From: a virus
Strand: one strand, 5' to 3'
DNA length: 21,913 nucleotides
IMG/VR virus record: IMGVR_UViG_3300046517_001952
Coordinates: 1-21,913 of that record
Below, piece by piece: positions 3,136 through 20,306 of the stretch (position 1 is the stretch's first letter; the number at the start of each line of letters is the position of its first letter). Made by a program: the position numbers and the translations under genes. The notes under the pieces were generated by a model that saw only the letters and a program-made list of their open reading frames with translations, had not been told where the DNA came from and searched no databases.

Positions 3136-3453
3136 GTGAAGCTGACCGCGATCAACGGGAAGTTCATCACCCACGCGGATGGCCGTTCGGGTACCGGCGT
3201 GCGCTTCAATTGCCAGTGCCGACCTGACTGCGACGAGTTCATCGCGGTCTCGTTTGAAAACCCGGTAGACGGCGGAGTGCCAGACCCAAGCACGTCGGTG
3301 CGTTGGGACCGCAAAGGCAGCACGCTCGACACGCTCACGCTGTCTCCGAGTATCAACTTCACCCACGTCATCGACAGGCCGGGCGACCCGTTGCACGGCA
3401 AGAAATGCAACTGGCATGGATGGGTGCGCGACGGCTCTGCGGTGATCGCGTGA
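3136..3453 (+). CDS. DUF6527-like small phage protein with zinc-ligand pattern
   Basis: A 105-residue protein. Three closely spaced cysteines (C26, C28, C32 in FNCQCRPDCDEF) are followed about 60 residues later by C91 and H94 in KKCNWHGWVRDG. Between them lies DTLTLSPSI. This layout (Cys cluster, TLSPSI strand, CxWHGWVRDG ending) matches my memory of DUF6527 proteins common in phages, and suggests one bound zinc ion. The function of the family is not known to me. GTG 3136 is the only possible start after the in-frame TAG at 3097, and it lacks a recognisable ribosome-binding site. The stop overlaps the portal start by 4 bases (GTGA), so this gene may mainly feed translation into the portal gene. 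Confidence 0.65.
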   Translation: MKLTAINGKFITHADGRSGTGVRFNCQCRPDCDEFIAVSFENPVDGGVPDPSTSVRWDRKGSTLDTLTLSPSINFTHVIDRPGDPLHGKKCNWHGWVRDGSAVIA

Positions 3454-6032: not shown

Positions 6033-6531
6033 ACCGCTGAGGTTTCGATTCGCTGAGAAGGTGATCACCTTCTCGACCACGGAAGGTTGCTGGGAGTGGA
6101 CCGGCGCTCTGAATGGTCACGGCTACGGGTCGATCAGAGGTGAGCGCGCAGACGGCTGGCCAATGCTCGGCGCTCACATCGTGGCGTGGGAGTTGGTGAA
6201 CGGCCCCGTGCCGCGAAGGCTCTGCGTGCTCCATCGATGCGACAACCGGAAATGCTGCAACCCCGAGCATCTGTTCCTTGGCACGAAAGCCGAGAACAAC
6301 GCCGACCGCGACGCGAAAGGGCGAGGCCGCTGGCCGCACGGCGCGGATCAGTGGATGGCGAAGCTCGACGATGCGAAGGTGATGGAGATCCGCTACCGGG
6401 TGGCCGGCGGAGAGAAGCAGCGCCGACTCGTCGAGGAGTTCAAGGTGTCGCCGATGACGGTGAGCCTCATCGTGCGCGGGAAGATTTGGAAGCACTTGCC
6501 GGTCGCCGGCAGAGAGGCGTGGGCTGCATGA
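6019..6531 (+). CDS. HNH endonuclease (HNH_3-type, likely homing)
   Basis: A 170-residue nuclease. ATG 6019 was chosen because GGAGAAG lies at 6006-6012; the frame extends upstream inside the portal gene, but those residues are a shadow. [16 protein letters not shown] and [14 protein letters not shown] (H53) lead to the core [19 protein letters not shown] with C69, H72, C74, C79, C80, N81 and H84, followed by [15 protein letters not shown]. This is the HNH_3 pattern of phage homing endonucleases, with cysteines that may bind a structural zinc. The C-terminal segment [18 protein letters not shown] looks like a helix-turn-helix that would give site specificity. The gene overlaps the portal gene by 14 bases and the protease by 4 (ATGA), so it is translated within the head operon. 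Such genes typically cut homologous DNA lacking the insert. Confidence 0.9.
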
Positions 6532-7901
6532 AAGCCAAGGGCAACACGAAGCGAGACAAGGCAGGCCGCGTACTGCGGCATCTCTACGACGGCGTTCGTT
6601 CCGCGTTCGTTCAGGCCCCGGCGGTGCTCGGCGCGCCGCCCGAGGGCTACCGATGGAACAAGCTGTTTCCGTTCGGCGAGCGGTTCCGCTCCGACTTCCC
6701 CGATGGCTCGATGACCTTCGACCGCGCGTTCTTCGACGCGATGGTGCAGAACTTCGCCAAGCTGAACGGGCGCGACCTGCCGGTCGACTACTTCCATCGG
6801 GGCTCGAGCGACAACAGTCCGGTGCCGAACGACTCGAAGATTGCGGCCGGGTGGATCGGCCGGCTGCAGGTGGTGGGCAGCGGCGCCGACGAAGCGAGCG
6901 ACGGGCTGTGGGCCGCGTTCAAGTGGACCGACAAGGCGCGCGCGCACATTCTCGCCGACGAGCTGCGGTACCTGTCGCCGACCTTCACGGAGAGTGGCGT
7001 TGACAGAACGACGGGACTGGAACAAGGTCCCACACTGTTCGGGGCGGCGCTGCTCAACGATCCTTTTCTGCAAGACCTGCCGAAAGTGGCAGCTGCAGCG
7101 CACCCGAAGTCCCCGGAGCACCGTCGAATGGACCACGCCACCGCCTGCAAGCACTTCGGCCTCGACCCCGATCAGACGTCGCCCGAGCAGCTCTCGCAGC
7201 ACATGGCGAAGGCGGGCGCGGCGTACCAGAAGGCCGGCGGTCACCAGCCGCCCGCGGGTGCCGGTGCCGAAGGTGAAGGCGGCGGCGAAGGTGGCGACGT
7301 CGACCCGGACGGCGATGGCGAGCCCGATGGTGGGCCGCAGGGCGGCGGAGCGGGCGGCGCGGTTCACGTTCACGTTCACGCGGAAGGTGCGGCGGTGAAG
7401 AAGACCAAGAAGACTCTCGCGGCGAAGCCGGCCGAGCACGAGTCGCCGAATTCGAACGAGCGCCGAGAGTTCGCCGCGCAGATGGCCCAGGTCGGCACCC
7501 GGCTGACCGCGCTCGAGACCGAGAACAAGCAGCTGAAGGCCGACAAGAAGACCCGCGACCACGACGACCTCGTGCGCGAGCTCCTCCGCGGCGACCACAT
7601 CGACGCGTCGCAGAAGGGCGAAGTCGTCGAGATGGCGGCGGCGATCGGCGTCGAGAAGGCGAAGCTGTTCTTCTCCAAGTTCAAGCGCGGGCTGCAGGGT
7701 CAGGTCGGGCTGAGCATCGACCCCGACGGCACCATCGAGGCGAAGACCCCCGAGCAGGCGGTCAAGGCGCTCGACGGGCAGGTCGTCAAGATGGTGAAGG
7801 AGCTCAACCTCAAAGAGGGCGAGGCGATGGCGCGCGTGTATGGCGCGGCCGAGAACAACCTCCTCGTCGCCCTCGCGAACAGCTCGTCGCGCCCCCGGTA
7901 A
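6528..7901 (+). CDS. Head maturation protease with C-terminal scaffold-like region (Mu gpI family)
   Basis: A 457-residue protein starting at ATG 6528 (overlap ATGA). The first 190 residues match the Mu I-type prohead protease: [20 protein letters not shown], then LPVDYFHRG with the likely catalytic H90, [10 protein letters not shown], and [12 protein letters not shown] with the likely nucleophile S150. It would cleave the scaffold and itself during head maturation. A Gly/Asp-rich linker (about 244-288) contains [11 protein letters not shown] and a His-Val repeat. Beyond it, residues about 312-355 form a coiled coil ([19 protein letters not shown]) and a charged helical tail, as expected for a scaffold that nucleates the capsid shell. 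In Mu the scaffold is made from an internal start in the I gene, which may also apply here. The gene directly precedes the capsid genes, as in other phages. Confidence 0.88.
7128..7901 (+). CDS. Possible internally initiated scaffold protein
   Basis: An in-frame ATG at 7128, giving [16 protein letters not shown] at the N-terminus, is preceded by GGAG at 7115-7118 with a 9-base spacer. It lies just where the protease domain ends. A 257-residue product would contain only the linker, coiled coil and tail, the shape of a scaffold protein. Mu expresses gpZ from inside gene I in the same way. The site fits that precedent, but a GGAG this close to an ATG can also arise by chance in GC-rich DNA. Confidence 0.4.
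   Translation: MDHATACKHFGLDPDQTSPEQLSQHMAKAGAAYQKAGGHQPPAGAGAEGEGGGEGGDVDPDGDGEPDGGPQGGGAGGAVHVHVHAEGAAVKKTKKTLAAKPAEHESPNSNERREFAAQMAQVGTRLTALETENKQLKADKKTRDHDDLVRELLRGDHIDASQKGEVVEMAAAIGVEKAKLFFSKFKRGLQGQVGLSIDPDGTIEAKTPEQAVKALDGQVVKMVKELNLKEGEAMARVYGAAENNLLVALANSSSRPR
7362..7379 (+). repeat. Three tandem copies of GTTCAC in the protease linker
   Basis: The hexamer GTTCAC occurs three times without a mismatch and encodes the His-Val stretch VHVHVH in a Gly-rich linker. Short in-frame repeats of this kind can gain or lose units without shifting the frame, which would change linker length. Confidence 0.7.
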
Positions 7902-7912
7902 CTCCACCTTTC

Positions 7913-7948
7913 CTTTCACACCGCAGCACGCAGGAGCAACGACATGGG
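7913..7948 (+). promoter_or_regulatory. Translation leader of the decoration gene (copy 1 of a duplicated leader)
   Basis: The segment contains, in order, CTTTCAC, CCGCAGCA, CAGGAGCA and ACGACATGGG. The AGGAG core (7932-7936) lies 7 bases before ATG 7944. The same four blocks recur before the major capsid gene. It probably gives strong, similar translation of both abundant head proteins. Confidence 0.65.
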
Positions 7949-8366
7949 AATCACCGCGACTCGAACGGGTGCCTGGGACCTTCCGGTTTCGGGTGGCGAC
8001 TACAGCTACGTCGCCGCGTCGGCGATCAAGCAGTGGGCTGCGGTGAAGGCCGACACCACTGAAGGTCAGGTCGCGGAGACCAGCGCGATCACCGACATCG
8101 TTCTCGGCATCGCTCAGACCGCGGCTGCGACGGGCGAGACCGTCACGGTTCGCCGGCTCGGCACCACTCCGTTCTTCGCTGACGGCGCGGTCACCTACGG
8201 CGCCGAGCTGATGCCCAGCGCCGCGGGCACCACCAAGACGGGCTGGCTGAAGGTCGCGGCCGGCGCCACCGCGCGCACCGTGGGCGTGTGCGAGCACGCT
8301 GCGGCCGACACCGAACAGGGTTCCATCTTCCTCAGCACTCCGGGCAAGCAGCCGCCCAACAGCTAA
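7944..8366 (+). CDS. Head decoration protein (DUF2190-like)
   Basis: A 140-residue protein whose position, between protease/scaffold and major capsid, is the usual place for a capsid-stabilising decoration protein. The sequence is beta-rich and Thr/Ala-rich with no charged helices. VSGGDYSYVAASAIKQWAAV, TDIVLGIAQTAAATGETVTVRRLG and VGVCEHAAADTEQGSIFL recall DUF2190-type capsid proteins, which contain a 'goes back to baseline plus gain of property' repeat such as TGETVTVR. It would bind the outer surface of the capsid shell and resist internal DNA pressure. ATG 7944 is preceded by a strong site (AGGAG). A minor uncertainty is the exact family, since small decoration proteins diverge quickly. 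Confidence 0.75.
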   Translation: MGITATRTGAWDLPVSGGDYSYVAASAIKQWAAVKADTTEGQVAETSAITDIVLGIAQTAAATGETVTVRRLGTTPFFADGAVTYGAELMPSAAGTTKTGWLKVAAGATARTVGVCEHAAADTEQGSIFLSTPGKQPPNS

Positions 8367-8370
8367 GCCA

Positions 8371-8413
8371 CTTTCACCGAACCGCAGCATCAACAGGAGC
8401 AGAACGACATGGG
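8371..8413 (+). promoter_or_regulatory. Translation leader of the major capsid gene (copy 2 of a duplicated leader)
   Basis: It carries the same ordered blocks as the leader of the preceding gene: CTTTCAC (8371-8377), CCGCAGCA (8382-8389), CAGGAGCA (8394-8401) and ACGACATGGG (8404-8413). The AGGAG core ends 9 bases before ATG 8409. Small spacer differences (4 or 2 extra bases between blocks) show that the copies have drifted. Confidence 0.65.
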
Positions 8414-9407
8414 CTTGAACCGAGCCGACTTCATCACCCGGACGCCGGCAGACAACATGCTGTTCATGTTCCTGCAGGACGACGCCGAGTTCATCGGCCT
8501 CGACGTGTTCCCGTACAAGCCCGTCGACGCCCAGCAGAAGAAGAAGTACCAGACCGACCTCAGCCACCTGAAGGCCGTCGACGACGTCGGCGACTCGAAG
8601 GGCGGCGTGCGGAAGGTCGGGTACGACGTCTTCAGCTCGAACATCACCACGTCGCTGTACAAGCTGGGTGCCGACATCGACCCGCGCGACGAAGCGATTT
8701 TCGATCAGCCGGTGAATCAGGTTCGCCAGATGCAGCTGCGGAACATCGCCAGCCGCCTCCGCATCGCGCACGAGTTGCGCATCGCGACCCTGGCAACCAC
8801 CTCGGGCAATTACCCGAGCGACCTGACGTCGGCGCTCACCACCGGCACGAACCGGTGGATTGACGCGGGCGGCGACTTCGAGGTCGACAGCAACACCGCG
8901 CGCAAGGCCATCAAGGCGCGCTCCGGCAAGCTGCCGAACGCGGTGGCGATGTCGCTGACGACGTTCGACCAGATTCGCACCGGCCCGCTGTTCCGCGATC
9001 GCGTGAAGTTCACCAACTCGTTCATGTCGATGGACGAGGTGAAGAAGACCCTGGCGACCGCGCTGCAGGTCGACCACATCTTCATCGGCTCCGCGAAGTA
9101 CAACACGGCCAACGACGGGGCCACCGACACCACCGCCGACATCTGGGCGGTCGTGGGCGTCGGCATGGTGGTGTTCTTCTACTACAACCCGTCGCCCGCG
9201 ATGTACGACGTCAGCTACGGCCACACGTGGATTCGCAAGAATCTCTACACGTATGAGGCCCTCGACCCGAAGCGCGGCTCGGCTGACGGGCGCATCACCG
9301 AAATCGAAGGCGGCTGGGAGTACGACTACTCGGCGGGCTACGTCGCCGACTCGGCGAACACCACCAAGTTCGGCGCCGGCTACCTGTTCCGCAACGTCAC
9401 GGCGTAA
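8409..9407 (+). CDS. Major capsid protein
   Basis: A 332-residue protein that would form the icosahedral shell. It follows the protease/scaffold and decoration genes in the canonical order. It has the composition of a major head protein: no cysteine, high Ala/Asp/Thr, alternating helical (RQMQLRNIASRLRIAHELRIATLA) and beta segments, and the ending EYDYSAGYVADSANTTKFGAGYLFRNV. AVVGVGMVVFFYYNPSPAM and VSYGHTWIRKNLYTYEA resemble the C-terminal half of Mu/HK97-like capsid proteins I remember. The start is set by AGGAG at 8395-8399. A hairpin directly after the stop may protect or partly terminate the abundant mRNA. Identity rests on order and composition rather than a catalytic motif. Confidence 0.85.
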   Translation: MGLNRADFITRTPADNMLFMFLQDDAEFIGLDVFPYKPVDAQQKKKYQTDLSHLKAVDDVGDSKGGVRKVGYDVFSSNITTSLYKLGADIDPRDEAIFDQPVNQVRQMQLRNIASRLRIAHELRIATLATTSGNYPSDLTSALTTGTNRWIDAGGDFEVDSNTARKAIKARSGKLPNAVAMSLTTFDQIRTGPLFRDRVKFTNSFMSMDEVKKTLATALQVDHIFIGSAKYNTANDGATDTTADIWAVVGVGMVVFFYYNPSPAMYDVSYGHTWIRKNLYTYEALDPKRGSADGRITEIEGGWEYDYSAGYVADSANTTKFGAGYLFRNVTA

Positions 9408-9422
9408 GACTCGCGCGGGGCC

Positions 9423-9447
9423 GCCTGCTGGTGGTAAGTCAGCAGGC
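9423..9447 (+). terminator. Hairpin after the major capsid gene (possible attenuator or mRNA-stabilising stem)
   Basis: A perfect 8-base inverted repeat, GCCTGCTG (9423-9430) and CAGCAGGC (9440-9447), encloses a 9-base loop. No run of T follows, so it is not a classical intrinsic terminator. Its place, 15 bases after the capsid stop, fits a structure that protects the capsid message or lowers read-through into later genes. Confidence 0.55.
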
Positions 9448-9470
9448 ACCACCCGCTCCACGGAGACACG

Positions 9471-9932
9471 ATGGCCGACAAAGAGAAGCTCGAAGAAGGC
9501 GTTTCGCGGGTTGCTCCCGGCCGCGTGCTGCCTCCGCCGACGCGCGCCGAGCTCCACGCGCAGAACGACGACAAAGACGAGTACATCATCACCCACGGCT
9601 CGGTGAAGGTCGGCAGCGGTGACGACGCGCGCATCGTCGAGACGGGCGGCATCGTCGAGCTCACCGAGCGACAGGCCGTCGACGTCGGCCTCGACCACCT
9701 CGCCACGCGCGAGCAGTGGAAGAAGATGACCGACGCGCACGACGCGCAGCTCGAGATGGAGAAGGACTTCGCCGAGGCGCAGGAGATGGCGGCCTCGCTG
9801 GGCAAGAAGGTTCGCCGCACCGGGCTGCCGGCCAACATGGCGCAGATTCGTGCGGCGGCCGAGAAGAAGTCGAAGGCGGAGTCGTCGCGGCTCGCCGATC
9901 AGGTCGACGGCGGCAAGTCCAAGAAGCGCTGA
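9471..9932 (+). CDS. Small head-region accessory protein of unknown function
   Basis: A 153-residue charged protein with no cysteine and no membrane segment. ATG 9471 follows GGAG at 9462-9465. The middle portion (EYIITHGSVKVGSGDDARIVETGGIVELTERQAVDVGLDHL) has a short beta-barrel feel with a 'GGIVELT' strand, a type of segment often seen in small phage proteins next to the capsid gene. The C-terminal half (residues about 80-153) is helical and Lys/Glu-rich, ending KSKKR. It may be a minor head or head-tail joining factor by position, but I do not recognise a named family. Confidence 0.65.
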   Translation: MADKEKLEEGVSRVAPGRVLPPPTRAELHAQNDDKDEYIITHGSVKVGSGDDARIVETGGIVELTERQAVDVGLDHLATREQWKKMTDAHDAQLEMEKDFAEAQEMAASLGKKVRRTGLPANMAQIRAAAEKKSKAESSRLADQVDGGKSKKR

Positions 9933-9945
9933 ACGGAGCCACACG

Positions 9946-10416
9946 ATGAAGCTCAAGGCACTGGGGTTCGGCATCGGTCTCGCGCTGTTTGCGGGGCTGC
10001 TGATGGCGTTCACGCCGCTCATCACCGACATCAAGACGACCGGCGAGTGGTTCAAGGGCGGGGTGAACATCTCGAAGGCGGCCCCGAACACCCCCTCGAC
10101 CCAGGTCATCACCGAGGCTCCGCTCTGCACCCTCGACATCGACTTCCCGGCCCTCGGCGCGGCGAGCGACTACGGCGGGTGCATCGACTCTCCCGCGTTC
10201 GCCTGTCCCGGCGTGGCCCACGGCGACCCGTGCATGGTGGGCATGAAGGAGCCGACCGTGCTCGACGGCGGCTCTCTGACCGCAAACATCACGTTCGAGG
10301 CGATGACGATGGCCGCGGGCTTCGTCAAGGTGCGCGCCTGCATGATTCCCGGTGACGGTGGGTCGGCGAACGCGCCCGACGCCGGATTCGTGGTGCGCTG
10401 CTTCTCCAACCAGTGA
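9946..10416 (+). CDS. Putative exported six-cysteine protein, first gene of the exported cassette
   Basis: A 156-residue protein starting at ATG 9946 after ACGGAG (9933-9938). MKLKALGFGIGLALFAGLLMA is a basic end plus a hydrophobic stretch (about residues 5-23), a signal peptide or membrane anchor. The rest contains exactly six cysteines (APLC, YGGC, AFAC, GDPC, VRAC, VVRC), an even number that allows three disulfides outside the cytoplasm. The C-terminal half has the pattern CPGVAHGDPCMVGM ... SLTANITFEAM ... GFVKVRAC, similar in layout to beta-sandwich 'GVAVGD ... V.V' modules at the ends of phage fibre proteins. DGG and DAG tripeptides are frequent. The gene lies between head and connector genes, where exported proteins are not expected. 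Its function is unknown; surface or virion display is a guess. Confidence 0.7.
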   Translation: MKLKALGFGIGLALFAGLLMAFTPLITDIKTTGEWFKGGVNISKAAPNTPSTQVITEAPLCTLDIDFPALGAASDYGGCIDSPAFACPGVAHGDPCMVGMKEPTVLDGGSLTANITFEAMTMAAGFVKVRACMIPGDGGSANAPDAGFVVRCFSNQ

Positions 10417-10423
10417 GGCCGTC

Positions 10424-10945
10424 GTGAAGCTCGGGCTGAAGATCAGCGGCGCCTTGGTGGTCGCGGTCATCGCGCTGGCGATGTTTCGAGCTCAGGCTTC
10501 GGTCCCCGAGCAGGTGCAGGCCGAGCTGACCGCCGCGCGGCCGGGCGGCGACCTCCAGCTGCTGACCCTGCTGAACGGCGAGCCGGTCGCGTTCTTCCTT
10601 CAGGACGGCGGCCCCGCGGGCTTCTACGGCACGGCGGCGGGCTGCATCGCCCTCGTCACGTCGCAGCCGGGCGTCGTGAAGGGCGACACGCTGATGGTGA
10701 TGCCGCTCGACGGCGGCGCCTCGTTCTGCTTCGACCCGATCGACGCCGGCACCGGCAGCACCTGCCTCGGCGTCACGAGTCACTTCAACATTCCCACCGG
10801 CCTCAAAGACGGTGGCGTGCCGGGCGAGCCGAACGTCGGCATTCCGTGCGCCGCGAACACCGCGTGCTACTTCGTGATGAGCAACTACACCGCGAACTTC
10901 TGCACGTCGGGTGGCTCGGACGTCGCCATCTGGAAGATGCGGTGA
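10424..10945 (+). CDS. Putative exported six-cysteine protein, second gene of the exported cassette
   Basis: A 173-residue protein. GTG 10424 follows GAGG at 10415-10418, 7 bases after the previous stop. The N-terminus (V1-K2-L3-G4-L5-K6, then a hydrophobic run to residue 21) ends in RAQAS, a good AxA-type signal-peptidase site after A25. The mature part again holds six cysteines (AAGC, SFC, STC, IPC, TAC, NFC). QPGVVKGDTLMVMP resembles CPGVAHGDPCMVGM in the preceding protein, so the two may share a distant beta module. DGG and DAG tripeptides recur (LQDGGPAG, PIDAGTG, LKDGGVPG). No enzymatic motif is visible. It is probably periplasmic, surface-bound or secreted; partner proteins are likely its neighbours in the cassette. 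Confidence 0.7.
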   Translation: MKLGLKISGALVVAVIALAMFRAQASVPEQVQAELTAARPGGDLQLLTLLNGEPVAFFLQDGGPAGFYGTAAGCIALVTSQPGVVKGDTLMVMPLDGGASFCFDPIDAGTGSTCLGVTSHFNIPTGLKDGGVPGEPNVGIPCAANTACYFVMSNYTANFCTSGGSDVAIWKMR

Positions 10946-10949
10946 AGCC

Positions 10950-11699
10950 GTGCGACGCCTCGCCGCGCTCGCGCTGCTGCTGAGTCTCGCCTCCGACGCC
11001 GGGCCTCGAGCGATGCGGTTTCTTGCTCCAGGCGGAGCCGGGCGACCGAAGGCGGCCGCGAGCTCATCTGCGCCCGGTTGTTCGCAAAGCATCGACTGCG
11101 CGATTCAGGCCGGCGACAAGGTCGGCAACTGGTGGGCGCTGAAGGCGGACGGCACGATGCTTTCGGGCTCGAGCCTCACCGAGTCGGCGCACGGTTCGCC
11201 CACCGTCTCACCAATCACCCTCAACGGCACGACGCAGTACTACGACAGCGCGGCGGTCGCCTTTCCTGCGACCAGCCAGTCGTTCAGCATCATGTTCGTC
11301 GCGAAGTTCAACGACGTGACGGCGGCCTATGTCGCTGCGAAATGGCCGGTCGCCAATCAGACGTTCATTTGCGGCGTCGCGGTGAGCAATCCGATCTTCT
11401 ACGCGTTCAGCAGCACCCCGACGTTCGTTCCAAACACGAGCGCTGGCGTCGTCTCAACGGGAACGTGGGTTGGGATTTGCTGCTCATTCAATTCCTCAAC
11501 GCAAGACGGGAACGTGCGTTACTCGGGCGTGAATTCACTCGTGTCAATCGGCCCGTCTACACAGAACACGACCAGCGCGCAGACGGTCGGCTCGACGGCA
11601 GCGACTCCGACGTTCAATGGGCAGCTGCGCGGCGTCTTCTACACCGAGACCGATGCGTGTGGCGCGGCGTCGGATCGGGTCATCGCGGGGGCCATGTGA
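10950..11699 (+). CDS. Putative exported LamG/concanavalin-like lectin protein
   Basis: A 249-residue protein. GTG 10950 was chosen because it gives V-R-R-L-A-A-L-A-L-L-L-S-L-A-S-D-A-G, a short signal peptide; it lies 4 bases after the previous stop, with only a weak upstream G-rich site. Residues about 80-245 show the LamG-like jelly-roll rhythm: ITLNGTTQYYDSAAVAF, QSFSIMFVAKF, TWVGICCSFNSSTQDGNVRY, and the closing strand FNGQLRGVFYTETDACG. Such domains usually bind sugars or other surface ligands. Six cysteines are present. The central part is rich in Ser, Thr and Asn and lower in GC (58% at 11341-11580 by my count) than the surrounding genes, a sign of different origin. It overlaps the next gene by 4 bases. 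Confidence 0.65.
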   Translation: MRRLAALALLLSLASDAGPRAMRFLAPGGAGRPKAAASSSAPGCSQSIDCAIQAGDKVGNWWALKADGTMLSGSSLTESAHGSPTVSPITLNGTTQYYDSAAVAFPATSQSFSIMFVAKFNDVTAAYVAAKWPVANQTFICGVAVSNPIFYAFSSTPTFVPNTSAGVVSTGTWVGICCSFNSSTQDGNVRYSGVNSLVSIGPSTQNTTSAQTVGSTAATPTFNGQLRGVFYTETDACGAASDRVIAGAM

Positions 11700-13696
11700 A
11701 ATACGTTCGGCCGGTGGCGGCGGTGGTGACGCTCGCCGCTCTTGGGCTTGTGGCCCGGTCGCTGACGGCCACCACGCCCCCGCCGACTTGGACCCAGGTC
11801 GCGGGCTACGAGTACACCACCACGCAGCTCGGCGCCTTGCCGCAATGCCTCGGCGACCCGTCCTGCTTTGCGCTCTGCACCTTCACCGACGCGGGGTGGG
11901 GCTGTATCGGCAACGACGGCGGCTCGGTCGGCGTCGTCACCAACAACGGCAACATGGGAGCAGGTACCTTCGCGCCCGGCCTGTTGGCGCTTCGCGCGGT
12001 GCAGGACTCGGACGCTCCTAGCGCGACGGGTCTGGAGGCGTGGCTCGGCGGCGACCAGACCTTCGTGATGGGCGGCTTCACGCGAAGCAACACCGAAACG
12101 GGCACCATCGAAACGCCCTTCACCCTCGCCAACGTTTCCGACTACAGCAACGTGTTCGCCACGCGCGCGGAGTCGGGGCTATGGAAGTGCAATTGGATTG
12201 AGGGCGGCAACGCTTCGACGTCCAACGTCACCAACGTGGCGAACAATCTCCAACCTCGAGACGGGTGGTCCATCTCGAGCTGCCGTCGTCACGCAGGCCA
12301 GCACCGCGCGCGCTCGAACGGCCAGAACGGCGAAATCACCACGTCAGATACCTCGCCCGGAGTGACTGCCGGCGCGGTGGCGAACTTCGGCCGCGCGCAG
12401 TCGACCGCTCCGGGCCTGGAGATGAACGGGCCGCTTGCCTTCGTCGCGCTCTACACGGAGTCGAAGTCTGACGTGTGGATGAACGACGTTGAGCAGGATT
12501 TCTCCGGCGCTCCGTTTGCCTACGTCGGCGGCGGCATTGGGCAGGTGGTCGGGCTTGACGACGGACAGGACGTGAACTTCTTTCAGTCGGGCGGGCACCT
12601 CGTGGCGCACGACTTTCACGATGCCGGGATTCGCCAGGGCCTTCGGGTGCTGCGCGGCATCATCGGCGACGAAGACGGCGGGGCTCAGTCGCTCATCACG
12701 AACTACTGGGCCGACGACGCGCTCAACGTCGCTTCGTGGGATGACGTGGGCAGCCCCGGCGTTGCTCCTGTCGCTTCCGCTGGCCCGTTCAGTCGGTATC
12801 TCAATTCGCTCACCGCCTACCGGCTGACCGACGACGACAGTTGCGCTTTTGAGGGCAAGTCGTCGGGCGAAAGCGTCTTTCACCGAGCGGTGCCCGAGCA
12901 CTACTACACCGCGAGCTGCTACCTCTCGGCCGGCACCACCATGAAAGCGCGTCTCGAAATCACTTCGGACGGAAGCGGTGGCGGGGCGTGCGACTTCACC
13001 GACCTCGACTCGACACCTCGCCGAGTCTCTTGCACCAGGAACATCAAGGCGGGCTCGACGGTGCACGGGCGCGTTCTCGTCGGCACCCAGGGCAGCGACA
13101 CCGGCTCCATCATCGTCTACCAGTGCCAGATGACGCCCGAGTCCTTCGCGGAGATGCCGAACCTCGACCGACGCATTCCCATCGGCTCCAGCTATGACGC
13201 GCTCAACGCCAACGGCTGGCCGACGACGGGCCGCGCGAAGTACGAGGAGGTTTTCTGCCCCCTCTACGACTTCAACTCCGAGTGGGACCACGGGGTGAAT
13301 ACGTTGTGGCCGTTCGACATTCAGGACTCCAACGGCACCAGCATCGCCGGGGTTGCGCTGGGCGACGGGTTCCCGGGGCTCATCACTGCGACGACTCGCG
13401 ACGGCGGCGGCGAGCCGTCCTACTTCACTGCGGCCGGATACTCGTCGGAGCCGTCGCAGTGCTACGCGATCAGCCTTGAATGGGAGCTCGACTCCGACGC
13501 CACCTGCTGCCCGACGACGCTGCGCTACGACGTCTGCGCTTCAAATGTGCCGCTGACGGCGTGCCACGCTTCGACAGCCATCGCCTCGCACATGGGCGTC
13601 TGCCCTGGCACGCCGGCTTCGATGAACCTCGGCAACCGAGCAGGAGCAACCGTTTCCACAAGCTTCTACGTGGCCGCCGTTAGGGTGTTCCAATGA
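11696..13696 (+). CDS. Large putative exported, cysteine-rich lectin-like protein
   Basis: A 666-residue protein starting at GTG 11696 (overlap GTGA). VKYVRPVAAVVTLAALGLVARSL is a signal peptide or anchor, followed by a Thr/Pro stretch. Residues about 80-270 look LamG-like (GLEAWLGGDQTFVMGGFTRS, PFTLANVSDYSNVF, then PLAFVALYTESKSD). Residues about 335-500 resemble a carbohydrate-binding beta-sandwich module (NYWADDALNVASWDDVG, YYTASCYLSAGTTMKARLEI). The C-terminal 150 residues are unassigned. I count 18 cysteines, far above the phage structural genes here; the major capsid protein has none. It is followed directly by a connector gene (ATGA overlap), so it is made as part of the structural operon. 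Possible roles are a host-surface adhesin, a virion-associated fibre or an exclusion factor; none can be proven from sequence. Confidence 0.65.
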   Translation: MKYVRPVAAVVTLAALGLVARSLTATTPPPTWTQVAGYEYTTTQLGALPQCLGDPSCFALCTFTDAGWGCIGNDGGSVGVVTNNGNMGAGTFAPGLLALRAVQDSDAPSATGLEAWLGGDQTFVMGGFTRSNTETGTIETPFTLANVSDYSNVFATRAESGLWKCNWIEGGNASTSNVTNVANNLQPRDGWSISSCRRHAGQHRARSNGQNGEITTSDTSPGVTAGAVANFGRAQSTAPGLEMNGPLAFVALYTESKSDVWMNDVEQDFSGAPFAYVGGGIGQVVGLDDGQDVNFFQSGGHLVAHDFHDAGIRQGLRVLRGIIGDEDGGAQSLITNYWADDALNVASWDDVGSPGVAPVASAGPFSRYLNSLTAYRLTDDDSCAFEGKSSGESVFHRAVPEHYYTASCYLSAGTTMKARLEITSDGSGGGACDFTDLDSTPRRVSCTRNIKAGSTVHGRVLVGTQGSDTGSIIVYQCQMTPESFAEMPNLDRRIPIGSSYDALNANGWPTTGRAKYEEVFCPLYDFNSEWDHGVNTLWPFDIQDSNGTSIAGVALGDGFPGLITATTRDGGGEPSYFTAAGYSSEPSQCYAISLEWELDSDATCCPTTLRYDVCASNVPLTACHASTAIASHMGVCPGTPASMNLGNRAGATVSTSFYVAAVRVFQ

Positions 13697-14187
13697 CCGC
13701 GCCCAACACCTTCGGCGTCACCCCGACCTACCTGCAGCAGCGGTTGTTCCCGAGCGCCAAACCCTTCAGCGCCACCACCGCGCCGACCGACACCACGGTG
13801 ACGTCGGTCATCGCCGAGCAGGCCGCGGAGTTGGAGGGCAAGCTGTCGCTGAAGGCAATCGACTCGACGCAGATTGCCAACGACGGCAGCACCGCCGCGT
13901 CGCTCTGGTGCCGGCTCACGCTCCGCCTGATGGTCGCCGTCGAGCTCGTCCAGTACATGACGGGCACCGACCCGAAGCTCTCCCAGGCGCTGCAGGCGAA
14001 GCTCAACGTGCGCTGGAAGGCGCTGAACGAGGGCGGGGCGTCGGCGCTCGGCAACGGTGCGTCGTCGAGCAGCGTCGCCGACCCGCTCGGACCCGACACG
14101 CACATCGGCGAGCTCAACCTCGACACCGGCGACGATTCCCTGGCGAGCGATGCCGCGCCCATCTTCCGACAGAGCGACAAGCTCTGA
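13693..14187 (+). CDS. Head-tail connector/adaptor protein (gp36/DUF1320-like position)
   Basis: A 164-residue protein starting at ATG 13693, overlapping the previous stop. It opens with VTPTYLQQRLFPSAKPF, then two helices (TSVIAEQAAELEGKLSLKAI and CRLTLRLMVAVELVQYMTG) and the segment LSQALQAKLNVRWKAL. This short all-helical layout beginning with a '[T/Y]..yL..R[LV]' segment is typical of neck adaptors that dock under the portal, the role of gp36 in Mu-like phages. It directly precedes a virion-morphogenesis gene, which agrees with a connector role. The C-terminal 40 residues are Ser/Gly/Asp-rich and probably flexible. The exact family is uncertain. Confidence 0.65.
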   Translation: MTAPNTFGVTPTYLQQRLFPSAKPFSATTAPTDTTVTSVIAEQAAELEGKLSLKAIDSTQIANDGSTAASLWCRLTLRLMVAVELVQYMTGTDPKLSQALQAKLNVRWKALNEGGASALGNGASSSSVADPLGPDTHIGELNLDTGDDSLASDAAPIFRQSDKL

Positions 14188-14198
14188 CGAGGTGAGCC

Positions 14199-14717
14199 GT
14201 GTCGGTCGCCTTCTTCGAAATTCGGTACCGCCTCAACGGCCGCCCGGTCGACGACCCGTTCGAGAAAATCAAGGTGGCTGCCGAGCGCGCCGGCGCCGAG
14301 CTGCTGCGCTTCGAGAAGCACGTCTGGCCGCGGGTGATTCCGGTGCTCGAAGCGGGCATTCGGCAGCAGTATGAAGAGGAGGGCGGCGGGCCTCACCGCG
14401 GGGCCTGGGCGGCGCTGTCGGCCACCTACCTTGCATGGAAGGAGCGCCACGGCTTCAGCAGCCGCATCGGGCAGCGCACCGGCAACCTGATGGCCGCGCT
14501 CACCCAGTCGGACAGCCCCTTCGCGCGGCGCGACTACGACAGCGAAAGGCTCGACTTCGGAACGGTCGGCATCAACTACGCGAGCTTCGTGCAGGAGGGC
14601 GCCCGGTACGCGCCAGACCGGCCGCCGCTCGACTTCCATGACGACACCGAGCAAGATTTGCGAGCAGCCCTCGTTGCTGGCATTCGAGAGGCGATGCAGC
14701 CCTTGGAGGGTCTCTGA
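14199..14717 (+). CDS. Phage virion morphogenesis protein (tail completion, Mu gpG/P2 gpS-like)
   Basis: A 172-residue protein starting at GTG 14199 after GAGGTGA (14189-14195). The body fits the virion-morphogenesis family: RVIPVLEAGIRQQYEEEGG, then GAWAALSATYLAWKERHGFS, IGQRTGNLMAALTQ, and FGTVGINYASFVQEGARYAP. The 'W..L...T...K' helix followed by 'L..tG.L..sl' and 'G.. ..YA..hq.G' is characteristic. These proteins act at the head-tail junction to complete the tail or neck. The gene ends in CTGA, where the stop overlaps the probable CTG start of the following gene, so the two are coupled. Confidence 0.85.
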   Translation: MSVAFFEIRYRLNGRPVDDPFEKIKVAAERAGAELLRFEKHVWPRVIPVLEAGIRQQYEEEGGGPHRGAWAALSATYLAWKERHGFSSRIGQRTGNLMAALTQSDSPFARRDYDSERLDFGTVGINYASFVQEGARYAPDRPPLDFHDDTEQDLRAALVAGIREAMQPLEGL

Positions 14718-15595
14718 GCGTCATCGTCGAACAGATCGCAATCGACGCGCTGCGCGACTGGCTGCTGCTCACGTTGCCGGCAAAGGTGCTGGAGGTGAAC
14801 AACGCCCGCGCCGCGTTCATTCGAAGCACGACAGCCGGGCCGTTCGTCATTCCCTCGAGCTTCGTACTGCAGCTGTCGTTCACCGCGGTGAACGTCGATG
14901 AGAACCCGGCGAGCTTCGGTGCCTACCCACTCATCGCCTCTGGCTCGCGTACGGCCGCGCAGGTGGCGAGCGACGTCAACGCGTCGTCTTCGGTCGGCAC
15001 CATCGCGACGGTCGACGTCGAGGGTCGGCTCGTCATCACTTCGCCGTTCGTCCCGAGCGCGGTCACCGACAACGTCTCTCTTGTCGTGGTGGCCCCGAAC
15101 GCGGCCGTGGCGGGTCTCGATGTGTTCGGCTGGGACCGGGGCGGAGAGAAGGAACGCCGCAGCCCCATCTACCCGCCGACGCGCTCTGCGGTACTCGACG
15201 GCTGGCCGCAGTCGCCCGTCGCTCAGATTGGTCAGGGCTTCGTCGTCGTCATCGGCGGCCGGCCGGCCAAAATGTGGGGCCCGGTGCTGCGGCGCGACGA
15301 GTACGAGGTCGAACTCAACGTCGCGCTGTTCCACTTCGTCGACGCCGCGGAGGCCGGTCTCGGCCGCGAGCACATCAGCTCGGTCGTGCGGTGCGTGCGC
15401 GAGGTTCTGATGACCGACCGCGGGCACCTTCTCGGGCGCGAGTCGCAGAAAGACGTCATGCTGGCGCTGGTGAAGGGTTCGGACATCTCCGAGCGGCCGT
15501 TCAAGTGGCTCGACGGGCAGGCACCAAACAGCCTTTTCGATGTAGGGTCTGTGGACATTTCGGTGCGCGTCTTCGAGCGCCCCGCGCAGTTCTAG
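14714..15595 (+). CDS. Tail-region protein, probable CTG start (tail terminator-like position)
   Basis: The frame is open from before the previous stop. The only common start is TTG 14774, but the residues before it (SVIVEQIAIDALRDWLLLTL) read as genuine protein. GGAGGG at 14705-14710 sits just before CTG 14714, so that codon is my choice, giving 293 residues. The N-terminal helix is followed by a beta-rich repeat-like region (FVIPSSFVLQLSFTAVNV, SRTAAQVASDVNASSSVGTI, GRLVITSPF) and a C-terminal part with VAQIGQGFVVVIGGRPAKMW, DEYEVELNVALFHFVD and FDVGSVDISVRVFERP. The last half resembles small tail-terminator proteins in layout. It lies between tail-completion and tail-tube genes, which agrees. 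No family is firmly recognised. Confidence 0.7.
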   Translation: MSVIVEQIAIDALRDWLLLTLPAKVLEVNNARAAFIRSTTAGPFVIPSSFVLQLSFTAVNVDENPASFGAYPLIASGSRTAAQVASDVNASSSVGTIATVDVEGRLVITSPFVPSAVTDNVSLVVVAPNAAVAGLDVFGWDRGGEKERRSPIYPPTRSAVLDGWPQSPVAQIGQGFVVVIGGRPAKMWGPVLRRDEYEVELNVALFHFVDAAEAGLGREHISSVVRCVREVLMTDRGHLLGRESQKDVMLALVKGSDISERPFKWLDGQAPNSLFDVGSVDISVRVFERPAQF

Positions 15596-15605
15596 GAGGA
15601 GCACC

Positions 15606-16826
15606 GTGTCGAATTTCGCACCCGTACCCGGCTGGGACTCGAGAGTCTTCATGTATTACGAGGGCGTCTACCCCGGCAGCTTCGGCACCCCCGTCACGCC
15701 TGTCGCAGCCCATGCACGCGAGATGATCAGCCTCAACCTCGGAGGCTCAGAAGTCGGGGCGGTGCGCGACAAGAAGGACCGCAACCCCGGCCGCGGAATG
15801 CGCAACGCCTTTGTCGAGGGCCGGGTCGGCCCGATGCCTTTCTCAGGGCAGACGTCTGTGAAGTCGCGCGCGGCGGTCGACACTGTTCCGCAGGAGTCGG
15901 TTATTCTGACGGCGGCTGGGTTGGTGCAGACGGTGAACAGCGGCACCAGCGTCGTCTATTCGATGAGCAGCGACCCGTTGAGCACGCTCGAATCGATGAG
16001 CATTTACCGCGTACTCGGCTCGGCCGGCGCCTCGGCGATGGAGGCCGAGTGGATGCGTGGTTGCATCACGAAGTCGCTGAAGTGGAGCGCGGCCGACAAG
16101 GAGTTGCTGCTCGACTTCTCCGGCGTGGGCATCGGCAAGGCGACGACGGGCGTCATCAGCTCGATCACCACCGACATCAGCCAGACCACCCTCGCGACCA
16201 TCACCACCGAGGAGGCGTACCGAATCAACAACGCGCTGGGCACGTTCGGCCACCTCTACATGCAGGTCGAGTCGGAAATTCTCGACATCACCGCCGTGAA
16301 CATCTCGACGCACACGCTCACGTTCGCGCGCGCGGCGCTGAGCTCGAGCGCGGCCGCGCACACCGCGAAGCCGCTCTACCCGTACCAGCCGGCGCTGACC
16401 GGCTACGCGGGCAGCCCGATTCCTGAGCCGGTCTCGTCGGTCACCATCGACAGCGTCGCGCTCCGGGCGATGTCATGGGAGGTCAACCTCAAGGCGACCG
16501 GCCTCGACCTGTTGCCGGGCGAGACGAACAGCAAGCACCTCCAGGGCATCAAGGTGCTCCGCTACGACCTCGAGGTGAGCGCGAAGCTGGTGTGCCACGG
16601 CGACGACGTCGCTCTGCTCGGCAAGGCCACCAACCGAAACACCGTCGCATGGAGCGTGGTTCAGGGTGGCACCACCGGCGGCATCATCACCATCGGCGGA
16701 AGCTACGCCGAGGTGATGCCCATCACGGTTCCCGACACCGCAGGCGACGCGAGCATCATCGACCTCAAGCTGCGAGTGCGCGACGACACGCTCGGGAACA
16801 ACTCATTTCTCGTGACGTACACGTGA
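15606..16826 (+). CDS. Major tail tube protein
   Basis: A 406-residue protein starting at GTG 15606. The ribosome-binding site AGGAGG (15594-15599) overlaps the previous stop codon. Its position, between tail-completion genes and the tail-assembly chaperone, is that of the tail tube gene in siphophages. It contains the beta-rich strands expected of tube subunits (KSLKWSAADKELLLDFSGVG; SWEVNLKATGLDLLPG; LRYDLEVSAKLVCHG) and an extra middle domain (about residues 205-260, MQVESEILDITAVNIS). The N-terminal part (VFMYYEGVYPGSFGTPVTPV) resembles the start of other tube proteins that line the tail lumen. It would polymerise into stacked hexameric rings around the tape measure. The insert makes it longer than the simplest tube proteins. 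Confidence 0.75.
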   Translation: MSNFAPVPGWDSRVFMYYEGVYPGSFGTPVTPVAAHAREMISLNLGGSEVGAVRDKKDRNPGRGMRNAFVEGRVGPMPFSGQTSVKSRAAVDTVPQESVILTAAGLVQTVNSGTSVVYSMSSDPLSTLESMSIYRVLGSAGASAMEAEWMRGCITKSLKWSAADKELLLDFSGVGIGKATTGVISSITTDISQTTLATITTEEAYRINNALGTFGHLYMQVESEILDITAVNISTHTLTFARAALSSSAAAHTAKPLYPYQPALTGYAGSPIPEPVSSVTIDSVALRAMSWEVNLKATGLDLLPGETNSKHLQGIKVLRYDLEVSAKLVCHGDDVALLGKATNRNTVAWSVVQGGTTGGIITIGGSYAEVMPITVPDTAGDASIIDLKLRVRDDTLGNNSFLVTYT

Positions 16827-16839
16827 TATCAGTTGGCGC

Positions 16840-17301
16840 ATGGCCAACCTGAACAGCGCGGTGCGGTGGGAGCGGTGGGTGCCCAACGTCGGCGACAACC
16901 GGAAGCTGAAGCCGTACGAGCAGCTGAGCTTTCTCATCGCCGTGGGCATCTCGACGACCGAGTCGCTCAGCCTGCTGGCCGGGCTCGACCTGGAGCAGTC
17001 GCAGCCGGTGCCGGGCGAGACGCCCGAGCAGCGAGCGGAGCGGGTGGCGGCGCGCGAGGCGAAGACGCTCGACCAGCTGGCGGTCTCGCTCGGTCGGTTC
17101 GCGAAGCTGACCGGCACGCACACCATCGACGGCAAGACCATCACCAACCTGCGCGAGTACATGGGCGCGGTGCCGATTGAGGTGGCCTTCGACGTGGTCC
17201 GGGTCATCAAGTACTGGAACACGATGCAGGGGGCTGATGAGCTTTTCTTCGCGCGGTCGTCTGGCGTCTCGCCTACTACCGACGACCCGGCCGGCCAGTA
17301 G
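16840..17301 (+). CDS. Tail assembly chaperone, short form (G-like)
   Basis: A 153-residue protein encoded directly before the tape measure gene. A soluble charged helical protein in this place is the normal tail assembly chaperone, which coats the tape measure while the tail tube polymerises. It opens MANLNSAVRWERWVPNV, continues with KPYEQLSFLIAVGISTTESL and a Glu/Arg-rich helix, and ends about 18 residues after a likely slip site at 17244-17250. The ribosome-binding site is weak (no clear GGAG before ATG 16840), with 13 bases after the tail tube stop. A minority of ribosomes probably shift to the -1 frame to add a second domain, as lambda does with G and G-T. Confidence 0.75.
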   Translation: MANLNSAVRWERWVPNVGDNRKLKPYEQLSFLIAVGISTTESLSLLAGLDLEQSQPVPGETPEQRAERVAAREAKTLDQLAVSLGRFAKLTGTHTIDGKTITNLREYMGAVPIEVAFDVVRVIKYWNTMQGADELFFARSSGVSPTTDDPAGQ

Positions 17302-17597
17302 GCCCGACGTGGGAGGGCGACCAGCGTCGCGGGTGGTTCGGCTACAGCCCGTCGACGAAACAGGGCGTGCCAGCGCAGCCCAGGCACCGCAGCCGGGTCA
17401 CCATCGAGCGGGCGTTCGAGGTGGCCCAGCCGGCGCTCGACGTCTGGCTCACGACGCGGCGGCACCCCGAGCAGCCACCTTTCTCGGGCGGCGTGTTGGA
17501 CTGGCCGCAGTGGCTCAGGCAGGCTCTTGAGGTGATGGACGTCGAGCAGGCGGTCGTCGAAGCTGTCGTTGCGGGAGAGGAGCGGCAGCGTGGGTGA
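17241..17597 (+). CDS. -1 frame extension of the tail assembly chaperone (T-like)
   Basis: This open frame is relative -1 to the chaperone. It is blocked upstream by two adjacent TGA codons (17235-17240) and then runs to the stop at 17595-17597. It reads AFLRAVVWRLAYYRR, WEGDQRRGWFGYSPSTKQG, then TIERAFEVAQPALDVWL and a helical end MDVEQAVVEAVVAGEE. The only internal common start, GTG 17367, has no good ribosome-binding site and would discard the well-formed first half. A -1 shift at TTC 17245-17247 would join the two frames as (16840-17247, 17247-17597), about 252 residues. It overlaps the tape measure start by 8 bases, again as in lambda-like chaperones. Confidence 0.7.
   Translation, partial: AFLRAVVWRLAYYRRPGRPVGPTWEGDQRRGWFGYSPSTKQGVPAQPRHRSRVTIERAFEVAQPALDVWLTTRRHPEQPPFSGGVLDWPQWLRQALEVMDVEQAVVEAVVAGEERQRG
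17244..17287 (+). promoter_or_regulatory. Programmed -1 ribosomal frameshift signal (slip site plus stem-loop)
   Basis: The slip sequence TTTCTTC (17244-17250) lets the tRNA on TTC re-pair with TTT one base back. Four bases later begins a stem of 7 perfect pairs, GGTCGTC (17255-17261) with GACGACC (17281-17287). Inside it is a smaller hairpin, GGCG (17263-17266) with CGCC (17270-17273). The heptamer is not a classical X XXY YYZ site because the second codon slips imperfectly. The combination of slip codon, short spacer and stem, exactly where the frames must join, is good evidence. Confidence 0.6.
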
Positions 17598-19461
17598 CAT
17601 CACGACGCACATCGAGCTGACCGGCAACGCGGGCGACGCGAAGAAAGCGCTCGAAGACGTCGGCGGCTCGGCGCACGAGGCGAAGACCGCCTTCGCCGAC
17701 TTCAAAGAGGAACTGGAGAAGGGCTCAGCGGAAATCGGGAAGCAAATCACCGCGTACGCGCTGCTCGAGCGCGCGGTCGAAGGTGCGCTCGAATTCGTGA
17801 AGGAGTTCACGGCCGAGTCCATCAAGCTCGCCGAGGCGCAAGAGACGGCCGACCGCAACCTGTCGCTGTTCGCCGGGAACCTCACCGCCGCCTTCAAGTC
17901 GCAGGCGGAGGAGTTCGAGAAGACCTACGGCGTCGCGGCCGAGCTGACCGAGAAGGTGCAGACGCTCGCCCTGGCGCACGGCGCCGACCGCGATCAGGTT
18001 CTGGAGTTGACCGAGGCCACCACCAAGTGGGCGGCCATCACCGGCACCGACGCCGCGGGCGCCGCGCAGCAGCTCGTCGTCGCGGTCGAGGCCGGGCGGC
18101 ACGCGTCGCGACAGTTGGGCATCCAGTGGGAGGAGACGGGCGACAAGTCGCAGGACCTGAAGAACGCCATCGACGCGCTCAACGAGAAGCTGGCCGGCGC
18201 CGACCCCACGGCCGAAGCGACGCTGCAGGGCCGGACTCAGCGCGCGGCGATCAGCTTCGACAATCTCAAAAAGGCGTTCGGCAACTGGATCACGGTCGTC
18301 GAGTCGAAGGCCGGGGTGCTCGACAAGCTGGGCGGCGCGCTCGATTCGATTCGCGGCGGGCTCTCGGCGAAGGGCGCCGGGGCGATCGCTGGCGGTCTGG
18401 CATACGGCCCGCTCGCCGCCGTCGCGGGCGCGGGCATCGGCAGCCTGGGTGAGAACGACATCGAGCCCGCGCCGGCGCAACAGAACTACGACCAGCAGCT
18501 GATCGGCTCCAACACCGACGAGAAGACGCTCGCCGCGCTGAAGAAAGCGAACGAAGCCCAGGCGAAGGAGCAGCAGAAGAGCATCGAGGAGAAGCTCAAG
18601 AAGGACGCCGAGTACTGGGACAAGCGCGGCGTCACGCATCAGGCCGAAGACGCGAAGGAGAACGCGGAGGCCGAGCGGCACAGCGAGGAACTTCAGGCGC
18701 AAGAGCAGGCGGCCTACGACAAGTCGCTCACCGATGAGCAGACCGCGTACGACGCGCAGCTGACCGCACTGAAAGAGGAGAAGCTAAAGGAGGAGGAGGA
18801 GGTTCAGAAGTCACAGGATCGCCAGTTCGAAATCAACCTCCACGCGTGGCAGAAGTACGAGAAAGCCCGCTTCAAAGCGCAGGAAGAGGCGAACAAGAAA
18901 CTCGAAGACGCCGAGAAACAGGCGGCCGAGGAAATCGGCGCGGTCATCACGAACACCATCACCTCGACGTTGCAGAACGCGATGAACGGGCAGCAGCAGT
19001 CGTGGCAGGACGTGGCGGGCTCGGCAGCGAGCTCCATCCTCACCATCGTCGGCGGCATTGTCGGCGCGTACTTCGGAGCGCCTCAACTCGGCGGCGCGCT
19101 CGGCTCCCTCGCCGGCACGGCCGCCAGCTACGGCATCCACCAAATCAAGCACGAGGGCGGCATGGTCGAGCGGTACCACGCGGGCGGGTACCCCGGCACG
19201 CTCGGCCCCAATGAGCAGATGATTATCGCCGAGGCGGGCGAAGGCGTCGTCGACAAGCGCACGATGGCGCGCATGGGTGGACCGGGCGGGCTCGAGCAGG
19301 CTAAGCGCGGTGGTGGCGGAGGCGGGCGCACCGTGGTGATTCAAGCGATGGACGCGCAGAACGTTCGCGACGGCTTCGAAGGTCGGCTCGGGCGCGGCAT
19401 GTCGATCGCGCTGCGCACCGGTCGCGGCTCCCTCCCGCGCGTCGTGGGGCTCGGGCGATGA
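17590..19461 (+). CDS. Tape measure protein
   Basis: A 623-residue protein starting at GTG 17590, 7 bases after AGGAG (17578-17582); an earlier GTG/ATG-type start at 17569 gives extra Arg/Ser residues and is less likely. It begins VGDITTHIELTGNAGDAKKAL, a typical tape-measure opening. Helical segments run through the protein, with a long coiled coil at about 310-453 (ALKKANEAQAKEQQKSIEEK, EEEEVQKSQDRQFEINL). A hydrophobic Gly/Ala region follows at about 481-517. The C-terminal EGGMVERYHAGGYPG, EAGEGVVDKRTMARMGGPGG motif is a hallmark of this family. It sets tail length and is ejected on infection. At the usual 0.15 nm per residue it predicts a tail near 93 nm. No cysteine was seen. Confidence 0.92.
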   Translation: MGDITTHIELTGNAGDAKKALEDVGGSAHEAKTAFADFKEELEKGSAEIGKQITAYALLERAVEGALEFVKEFTAESIKLAEAQETADRNLSLFAGNLTAAFKSQAEEFEKTYGVAAELTEKVQTLALAHGADRDQVLELTEATTKWAAITGTDAAGAAQQLVVAVEAGRHASRQLGIQWEETGDKSQDLKNAIDALNEKLAGADPTAEATLQGRTQRAAISFDNLKKAFGNWITVVESKAGVLDKLGGALDSIRGGLSAKGAGAIAGGLAYGPLAAVAGAGIGSLGENDIEPAPAQQNYDQQLIGSNTDEKTLAALKKANEAQAKEQQKSIEEKLKKDAEYWDKRGVTHQAEDAKENAEAERHSEELQAQEQAAYDKSLTDEQTAYDAQLTALKEEKLKEEEEVQKSQDRQFEINLHAWQKYEKARFKAQEEANKKLEDAEKQAAEEIGAVITNTITSTLQNAMNGQQQSWQDVAGSAASSILTIVGGIVGAYFGAPQLGGALGSLAGTAASYGIHQIKHEGGMVERYHAGGYPGTLGPNEQMIIAEAGEGVVDKRTMARMGGPGGLEQAKRGGGGGGRTVVIQAMDAQNVRDGFEGRLGRGMSIALRTGRGSLPRVVGLGR

Positions 19462-20306
19462 GCAACGGCTACTCGGTGAGCAACCTCGTGCTGCCGCTCG
19501 CGCCGGCCGCCATCAAGTTCGAGCTGAGCGGCAGCCCGCTGGCGCCGGCCTTCGGCTCGTCGGCATTTCTGCAGGACAACCGGATGGACAAGGTCGTCAG
19601 CTTCGCGTCCGAAGACCTGAGCGCCGACACGCTAGACATCGACATCGACATGGGCGGAGCGGTGAGCCTGGGCGGCTTCGCGATTCTCAACCACAACTTC
19701 GCCTCGGTCGGGTGCAACTGCACCGTCATCTGCTCGGCCGCCTCCGACTACTCCTCACCCACCACGGCAAAGGCGGCGACGCCGCTGACGAGCACCCGCT
19801 TCAAATCGAAGGACCACGCGCTGCAGTTCACTCCGGTCTCGAAACGGTACTGGAAACTGCGCTTCAGCAACGGCGACGCGCTCGTTCCGTACATCGGCGA
19901 GGTCTGGGCGTTCGGAGCCGCGGTGACGCTGCCGCGATTCAGCATCTACGGCTCGGGCGAATCGCGCGACGTGTTCGGCCCCGAGGTGGACTTCGCCAAT
20001 GGCAACAAGACCGCCTACTTTCTCGGCGGGCCGGTGCGCACGAAGAACTACCAGTTCGCCGACCTCTCGGCGTCGGACCTCGCCGCGTATGACGCGCTCT
20101 GGGACGCGACGAAGGGCTTCACGCTGCCGTTCCTCTGGCTCGAAGACATTGAGTCGACCGCCACAGCCGCGACGGTCCCCGCGCAGGAGTGCATCTTCGG
20201 GCGGTTCGAGCTGCCGTCGAACGCGTACGCCCAAGACGACTACGGCATCTTTCAGCCGGGGGCGCCGTTCAACATTCGCAGCCTCGGGCGTGACGTCGGC
20301 TCATGA
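19458..20306 (+). CDS. Distal tail/minor tail protein with discoidin-like domain
   Basis: A 282-residue protein starting at ATG 19458, overlapping the tape measure stop (ATGA). Residues about 20-155 resemble a galactose-binding, discoidin-like beta-sandwich: SFASEDLSADTLDIDIDMGG, LGGFAILNHNF, and FTPVSKRYWKLRFSNGD followed by PYIGEVWAFG. Such domains occur in the tail-tip proteins of siphophages and may touch the cell surface. The C-terminal half (TLPRFSIYGSGESRDVFGPE, ... LPFLWLEDIESTATA, ... FELPSNAYAQDDYGIF) looks like a distal-tail ring domain. Its position right after the tape measure is that of the distal tail protein. It overlaps the next gene by 4 bases. Confidence 0.75.
   Translation: MSNGYSVSNLVLPLAPAAIKFELSGSPLAPAFGSSAFLQDNRMDKVVSFASEDLSADTLDIDIDMGGAVSLGGFAILNHNFASVGCNCTVICSAASDYSSPTTAKAATPLTSTRFKSKDHALQFTPVSKRYWKLRFSNGDALVPYIGEVWAFGAAVTLPRFSIYGSGESRDVFGPEVDFANGNKTAYFLGGPVRTKNYQFADLSASDLAAYDALWDATKGFTLPFLWLEDIESTATAATVPAQECIFGRFELPSNAYAQDDYGIFQPGAPFNIRSLGRDVGS

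Follow-up and report, generated by a model that had tools for sequence, protein, structure and literature searches.

The window analysed here is a whole IMG/VR virus record of 21,913 bases, and the four genes that are the subject of this work (the cassette, 9946-13696) lie in it between a gp35-like and a gp36-like gene (Table 1). A second contig, IMGVR_UViG_3300047319_001241, repeats window 3681-21913 without a difference and adds 9.7 kb beyond it; the two contigs combined place a Mu-type head before a siphovirus-like tail, in the order terminase, Portal_Mu with a fused Mu F-like part, Mu I-type protease, cement protein, capsid (phrog_1005), neck (phrog_26), tape measure and tail proteins. A putative endolysin, so identified by reading its sequence, follows the tail proteins, and the lysis genes of the window phage are located elsewhere than the cassette. 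The GC content and the DGG/DAG-rich proteins of this phage are, as an impression, reminiscent of Myxococcota. No RNA family was found in the window, nor any tRNA in five related loci. Two features of the head module may be recorded in passing. Portal_Mu and Phage_Mu_F form a single protein of 860 aa (3450-6032), the F part falling under the Pfam cut-off; and a free-standing HNH endonuclease-like gene (6061-6531) separates the portal-F and protease genes, its place being taken by two different accessory genes (5113 onward) in L007, a locus whose terminase is 80% identical to that of the window.

Table 1. Cassette genes and flanking genes, in window coordinates
Feature	Position	Strand	Description
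Major capsid protein (phrog_1005)	8409..9407	+	PHROG match; 0 Cys, without signal sequence; upstream flank
gp35-position gene	9471..9932	+	assigned by position only; directly 5' of cassette
Gene 1	9946..10416	+	156 aa, 6 Cys; ATG start; signal sequence 9946-10008; exported-type, post-capsid family
Gene 2	10424..10945	+	173 aa, 6 Cys; signal sequence 10424-10498, ending AQA/S; small exported-type Cys protein
Gene 3	10950..11699	+	249 aa, 6 Cys; signal sequence about 10950-10991; weak LamG-like beta-sandwich
Gene 4	11696..13696	+	666 aa, 18 Cys; GTG start; signal sequence about 11696-11746; large adhesin-like protein
Gene 4 region, residues ~321-485	12656..13150	+	homologous to exported adhesin family and, via that family, to phage tail-fibre domains
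gp36-position adaptor gene	13693..14187	+	4-base overlap with gene 4; 43% identical in IMGVR_UViG_3300029930_000020
Neck / tail-completion protein (phrog_26)	14199..14717	+	PHROG match; downstream flank

The architecture described in the initial annotation was reproduced in full: the four reading frames are open from the proposed starts, exactly those starts were chosen by an independent codon-usage gene caller, the genes are separated by gaps of 13, 7 and 4 bases with 4-base overlaps of gene 4 with its neighbours at both ends, and the cysteine counts are 6, 6, 6 and 18, with none in the capsid protein or in the tape-measure protein (gene at 17590). The cassette looks like part of the late operon because no promoter, terminator or GC shift was seen at its borders.

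Signal sequences and cysteines of the cassette proteins

The N-termini of all four products carry 2 net positive charges followed by a hydrophobic core of 11-12 residues, in keeping with the basic cluster and hydrophobic stretch claimed for them. Signal sequences were scanned for with a hand-made rule (basic n-region, uncharged hydrophobic core of 9-12 residues, core start within 20 residues), whose charge requirement is failed by short adhesin signals of the form MLxALLxLAQ. The cassette genes score 8.4-10.6 and the next best structural gene of the window phage 6.4, so that by this rule no structural gene of the phage besides the four has a signal sequence. At the same threshold 56 comparator loci, mostly Myxococcota prophages with a Mu-type portal, yield 17 passing genes out of 992 (some of the 17 being cassette genes of one locus, L005), and of 112 genes located past the capsid gene on 20 contigs with related capsids none passes. 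Across phages the cassette N-termini are organised as in typical signals, with an n-region before a hydrophobic core; many also have an AXA-type cleavage site and some a lipobox; a lipobox is present in the adhesin of ctUh1700 (L102), and a lipobox Cys in none of the window's four. Judged by the rule, the four products differ from tail fibres or virion adhesins that lack a signal and stay in the cytoplasm. Separately, locus L019, from an Armatimonadetes MAG, has downstream of its capsid gene a tail-fibre-like protein (17073-17573) with a textbook signal sequence and 0 Cys, and three genes after it a LamG-like gene without signal sequence.

The cassette proteins examined, 38 from 13 phages, all have an even number of cysteines (2 to 18) when these are counted past the predicted cleavage site and with the lipobox Cys excluded. 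Of the controls from the same contigs with at least 2 Cys, 56 have an even and 26 an odd count (Fisher p 2e-5, a value that overstates independence, as the 38 proteins are partly homologous and their parity counts not independent). Within the adhesin family described below the counts vary from 6 to 14 and are all even, and therefore cysteines appear to have been gained or lost in pairs. Cysteine density is 3.0% in the cassette versus 0.74% in the remaining genes of the window phage, a fourfold difference. A further 15 exported-looking genes on the cassette contigs have an even mature count in 13 cases and an odd one in 2.

All four window genes, which are coupled and belong to a structural operon, thus combine a signal sequence with an even number of mature cysteines. 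Even and high cysteine counts together with Sec signals point to a life outside the cytoplasm, and the earlier proposal that the four products are exported and disulfide-bonded is well supported by these sequence features, which include, besides the uniform parity, the retention of signals at the same locus in a divergent relative (see below).

Relatives of the cassette genes in other phages

The initial annotation also held the set to be lectin-like, with LamG-like sequences in two of the genes. For gene 3 a Laminin_G_3 match was recovered, yet one below the Pfam cut-off (E 0.016; 15.8 bits versus 27.6), and no homologue of this gene was found; gene 4 gave no LamG match, nor any other in Pfam and PHROG searches. 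PDB sequence searches with all four products returned nothing useful. Gene 4 is not isolated: its internal region (Table 1) matches a family of adhesins of 405-489 aa (E 4e-9 to the member in L106, HMM 1.4e-7, shuffle z up to 17.4), for which a scan of IMG/VR yielded 11 contigs. Of the 10 sequences aligned for the adhesin family, 9 match PHROG 5939 ('tail protein'), and homologues of the domain in RcapMu and S-WAM2 are annotated tail fibre or tail protein; among the window's four genes such a tail-fibre-type domain was recognised in gene 4 only. Homology to the PHROG 5939 domain (RcapMu58; S-WAM2 P29B0810_196, among others) extends over the greater part of the exported adhesins and by way of them reaches the gene 4 region. 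These two proteins, the known examples compared here, are Cys-poor and have no typical signal sequence, whereas the exported forms have signal sequences, 6-18 Cys and exported neighbour genes. An AlphaFold2 model of gene 4 from its single sequence has a mean pLDDT of 34; that of the adhesin family (10-row alignment) has a mean of 43 and one better beta-sandwich stretch. With this low-confidence model Foldseek returned carbohydrate-binding modules (best E about 5e-3), a resemblance in predicted fold that is only a hint. A carbohydrate-binding-like adhesin character is supported for gene 4, by its adhesin-family domain, and less so for gene 3.

The adhesins usually come in company. In 11 phages the whole adhesin could be read, and in each it is export-tagged; 10 of these have a small Cys protein of exported type ahead of it (in L109 the adhesin stands alone after the tail genes); and a third exported-type Cys gene follows wherever the sequence continues, usually with overlapping genes, the third gene of ctUh1700 having a borderline score. 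In phages other than the window phage the adhesin lies mostly between tail and lysis genes. Neither gene 4 nor the third exported family had a match in 379 Myxococcota genomes, although for gene 4 this search was insensitive, missing relatives that local BLAST had found. Exported-looking fibre-type genes also occur outside the trio (L104 10659-12529, L108 4904-7152, L112 11160-12763, L113 11619-13546 and L102 12952-14087) and are among the 15 counted above.

The resemblance to known fibres raises the question whether the four proteins are ordinary virion fibres assembled in the cytoplasm, their hydrophobic N-termini being docking or membrane-interacting segments and not signal peptides. The domains of gene 1 and of the adhesin do have the look of virion modules, the adhesin has relatives with a tail-fibre annotation, and the cassette is inside a structural operon. 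We nevertheless judge this explanation improbable: n-region and core are typical of signals, with many AXA-type sites and some lipoboxes, even counts in 38 of 38 proteins are unexpected in a reducing cytoplasm, and the non-exported homologue in S-WAM2 has no hydrophobic start.

Genes 1 and 2 are best understood from IMGVR_UViG_3300029930_000020, a distant relative that is colinear with the window phage through head and tail (identity 39% for the capsid, 37% for the portal, 43% for the gp36-position protein and 47% for the neck) and has two signal-peptide genes between its gp35- and gp36-position genes. With gene 1 the first shares 38% identity (E 6e-13, shuffle z 21.5) and is its homologue. 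The second, which occupies the place of gene 2, resembles it in a short N-terminal match (z 4.0, 3 of 1000 shuffles as good) and belongs to the 'small' exported Cys family (profile E 4e-4), to whose profile gene 2 itself showed no significant match by hhalign. Other homologues of gene 1 follow the capsid gene immediately in ctUh1700 and IMGVR_UViG_3300043464_001446 and, by our own reading of the gene order, stand a few genes past it in ctLwi270; these three have signal sequences and 2-4 Cys. Over the five phages, gene 1 and its homologues all have a signal and an even cysteine count, two abutting the capsid gene and three lying within four genes of it. In 50,697 phage records searched by tblastn, genes 1, 2 and 3 had no match or chance-level matches only, and a portal alignment search of genome contigs found no relative.

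Unlike the window phage, IMGVR_UViG_3300029930_000020 has its adhesin and a 'third-family' protein after the tail genes. The window phage has thus brought together, at one site after the capsid gene, elements that are divided between two sites in others. The Mu-like head module of Myxococcus phage Mx4 has the same order (terminase, portal, capsid, small gene, Ad1, Ne1), but it lacks any gene at the site of the window's four, its Ad1 coming next after the small post-capsid gene. In a Myxococcota prophage (L096, G215:C25; 3149-7813) the cement and capsid genes occur as tandem duplicates (products of 126 and 329 aa; 3149-4618 and 5967-7436), which could be a real duplication or an assembly error, and after the second of the capsid genes comes a signal-bearing gene of 96 aa whose product has 7 Cys.

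That the four are unrelated, host-derived genes inserted into the operon by chance or as a moron is highly improbable. Gene 3 has no homologue and the position of the adhesin cassette varies between phages, as this explanation would have it, but the gene starts are coupled; it was rejected for want of a promoter, terminator or GC shift of the insert's own, and it is contradicted by the signal-bearing genes at the conserved locus of IMGVR_UViG_3300029930_000020.

Predicted export, proposed maturation and possible roles

Taken together, these observations suggest that the four genes encode a late-expressed, exported and disulfide-bonded adhesin-type set of beta-sandwich modules, a reading to which we assign a probability of about 0.5. 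In the favoured mechanism, proteins built from beta-sandwich modules of the kind used in phage tail fibres would be synthesized together with the capsid, acquire their fold and disulfides in the periplasm, and encounter completed virions when the cell lyses; there they would attach as late decorations, the gene 1 family to the head and the adhesin family to the tail, and the decorated particles would stick better to host or matrix glycans. Decoration proteins that can bind finished capsids are familiar from T4 (Soc and Hoc) and phage L (Dec). We favour decoration because of where the genes lie: next to those for capsid and tail, they would be expected to be expressed late and in quantity, and their products may have a link to the virion; as a mechanism taken by itself, the addition of periplasm-matured proteins to virions at lysis is plausible at somewhat less than even odds.

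The main rival to decoration is that the exported adhesins mask receptor or matrix, covering the glycans that serve the phage itself as receptors, both on the infected cell and on debris; progeny would then not be lost on debris, and superinfecting phages would be blocked. Receptor blocking has been proposed for the T5 lipoprotein Llp (PMC4728585), and the cassette resembles Llp of T5 and BF23 in that, going by the signal sequences, its products are phage-encoded exported proteins; the Llp gene also adjoins adsorption genes (PMC4728585). Masking agrees with the usual location of the adhesins between tail and lysis genes, with the lipobox of the ctUh1700 adhesin, and with the separate tail-fibre-like gene, so identified from its N-terminal sequence, that precedes the cassette in L106, L108 and L111. 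However, Llp is a single lipoprotein, early-expressed according to the title of ref. 22 in PMC4728585, whereas the cassette is a multi-gene, disulfide-rich set with mostly SPase I-type signals and fibre-type domains, placed in a structural operon; most cassette proteins are not lipoproteins, the window's four have no Llp-type lipoprotein anchor, and the position of gene 1 beside the capsid gene suggests a head link. We regard masking as possible though rather unlikely, and the sequence evidence does not separate it from decoration.

A set that modifies the envelope or assists lysis, changing the host envelope or surface late in infection with adhesin domains aimed at wall or capsule polymers, is a long shot. 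It draws on phages other than the window phage, in which the cassettes precede holin-like and lysis genes, in which a peptidase-like gene (recognised by eye) follows gene 1 of ctLwi270, and in which the third cassette gene of ctUh1700 (L102 10227-10739) has a lipobox-like N-terminus and an HExxH motif that suggests an exported metalloprotease. Against it, Pfam and PHROG searches found no enzyme domain in the window's four genes, and the lysis genes of the window phage are elsewhere.

With decoration still the preferred role for the window's set, a broader statement can be made with slightly greater confidence: many environmental tailed phages probably turn tail-fibre-type proteins into Sec-exported, disulfide-bonded adhesins, arranged in standard cassettes beside capsid or tail genes and acting extracytoplasmically, either by decorating virions when the cell lyses or by coating host and debris in secreted form. 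The suggestion that no described system has this layout stands as regards the literature searched (which lacked most subscription journals), where no description of exported fibre-like cassettes was found, but must be modified in that related exported cassettes occur in more than 12 other uncultivated phages. No precedent was found there for tailed-phage virion proteins that join the particle after export. The parts, tail-fibre domains and Sec signals, are known; what would be new relative to that literature is the recurrent multi-gene exported cassette in structural operons.

The prevailing view is that tailed phages produce and assemble their structural proteins inside the cytoplasm. If the present reading is true, the cassettes would represent an undescribed class of phage-secreted structural-type proteins, whose signature (signal sequence, even cysteine count and capsid- or tail-side position) is a simple criterion for searching metagenomes, and the host periplasm would be a second workshop of these phages, finishing particles after lysis or secreting proteins that condition the surroundings for progeny.
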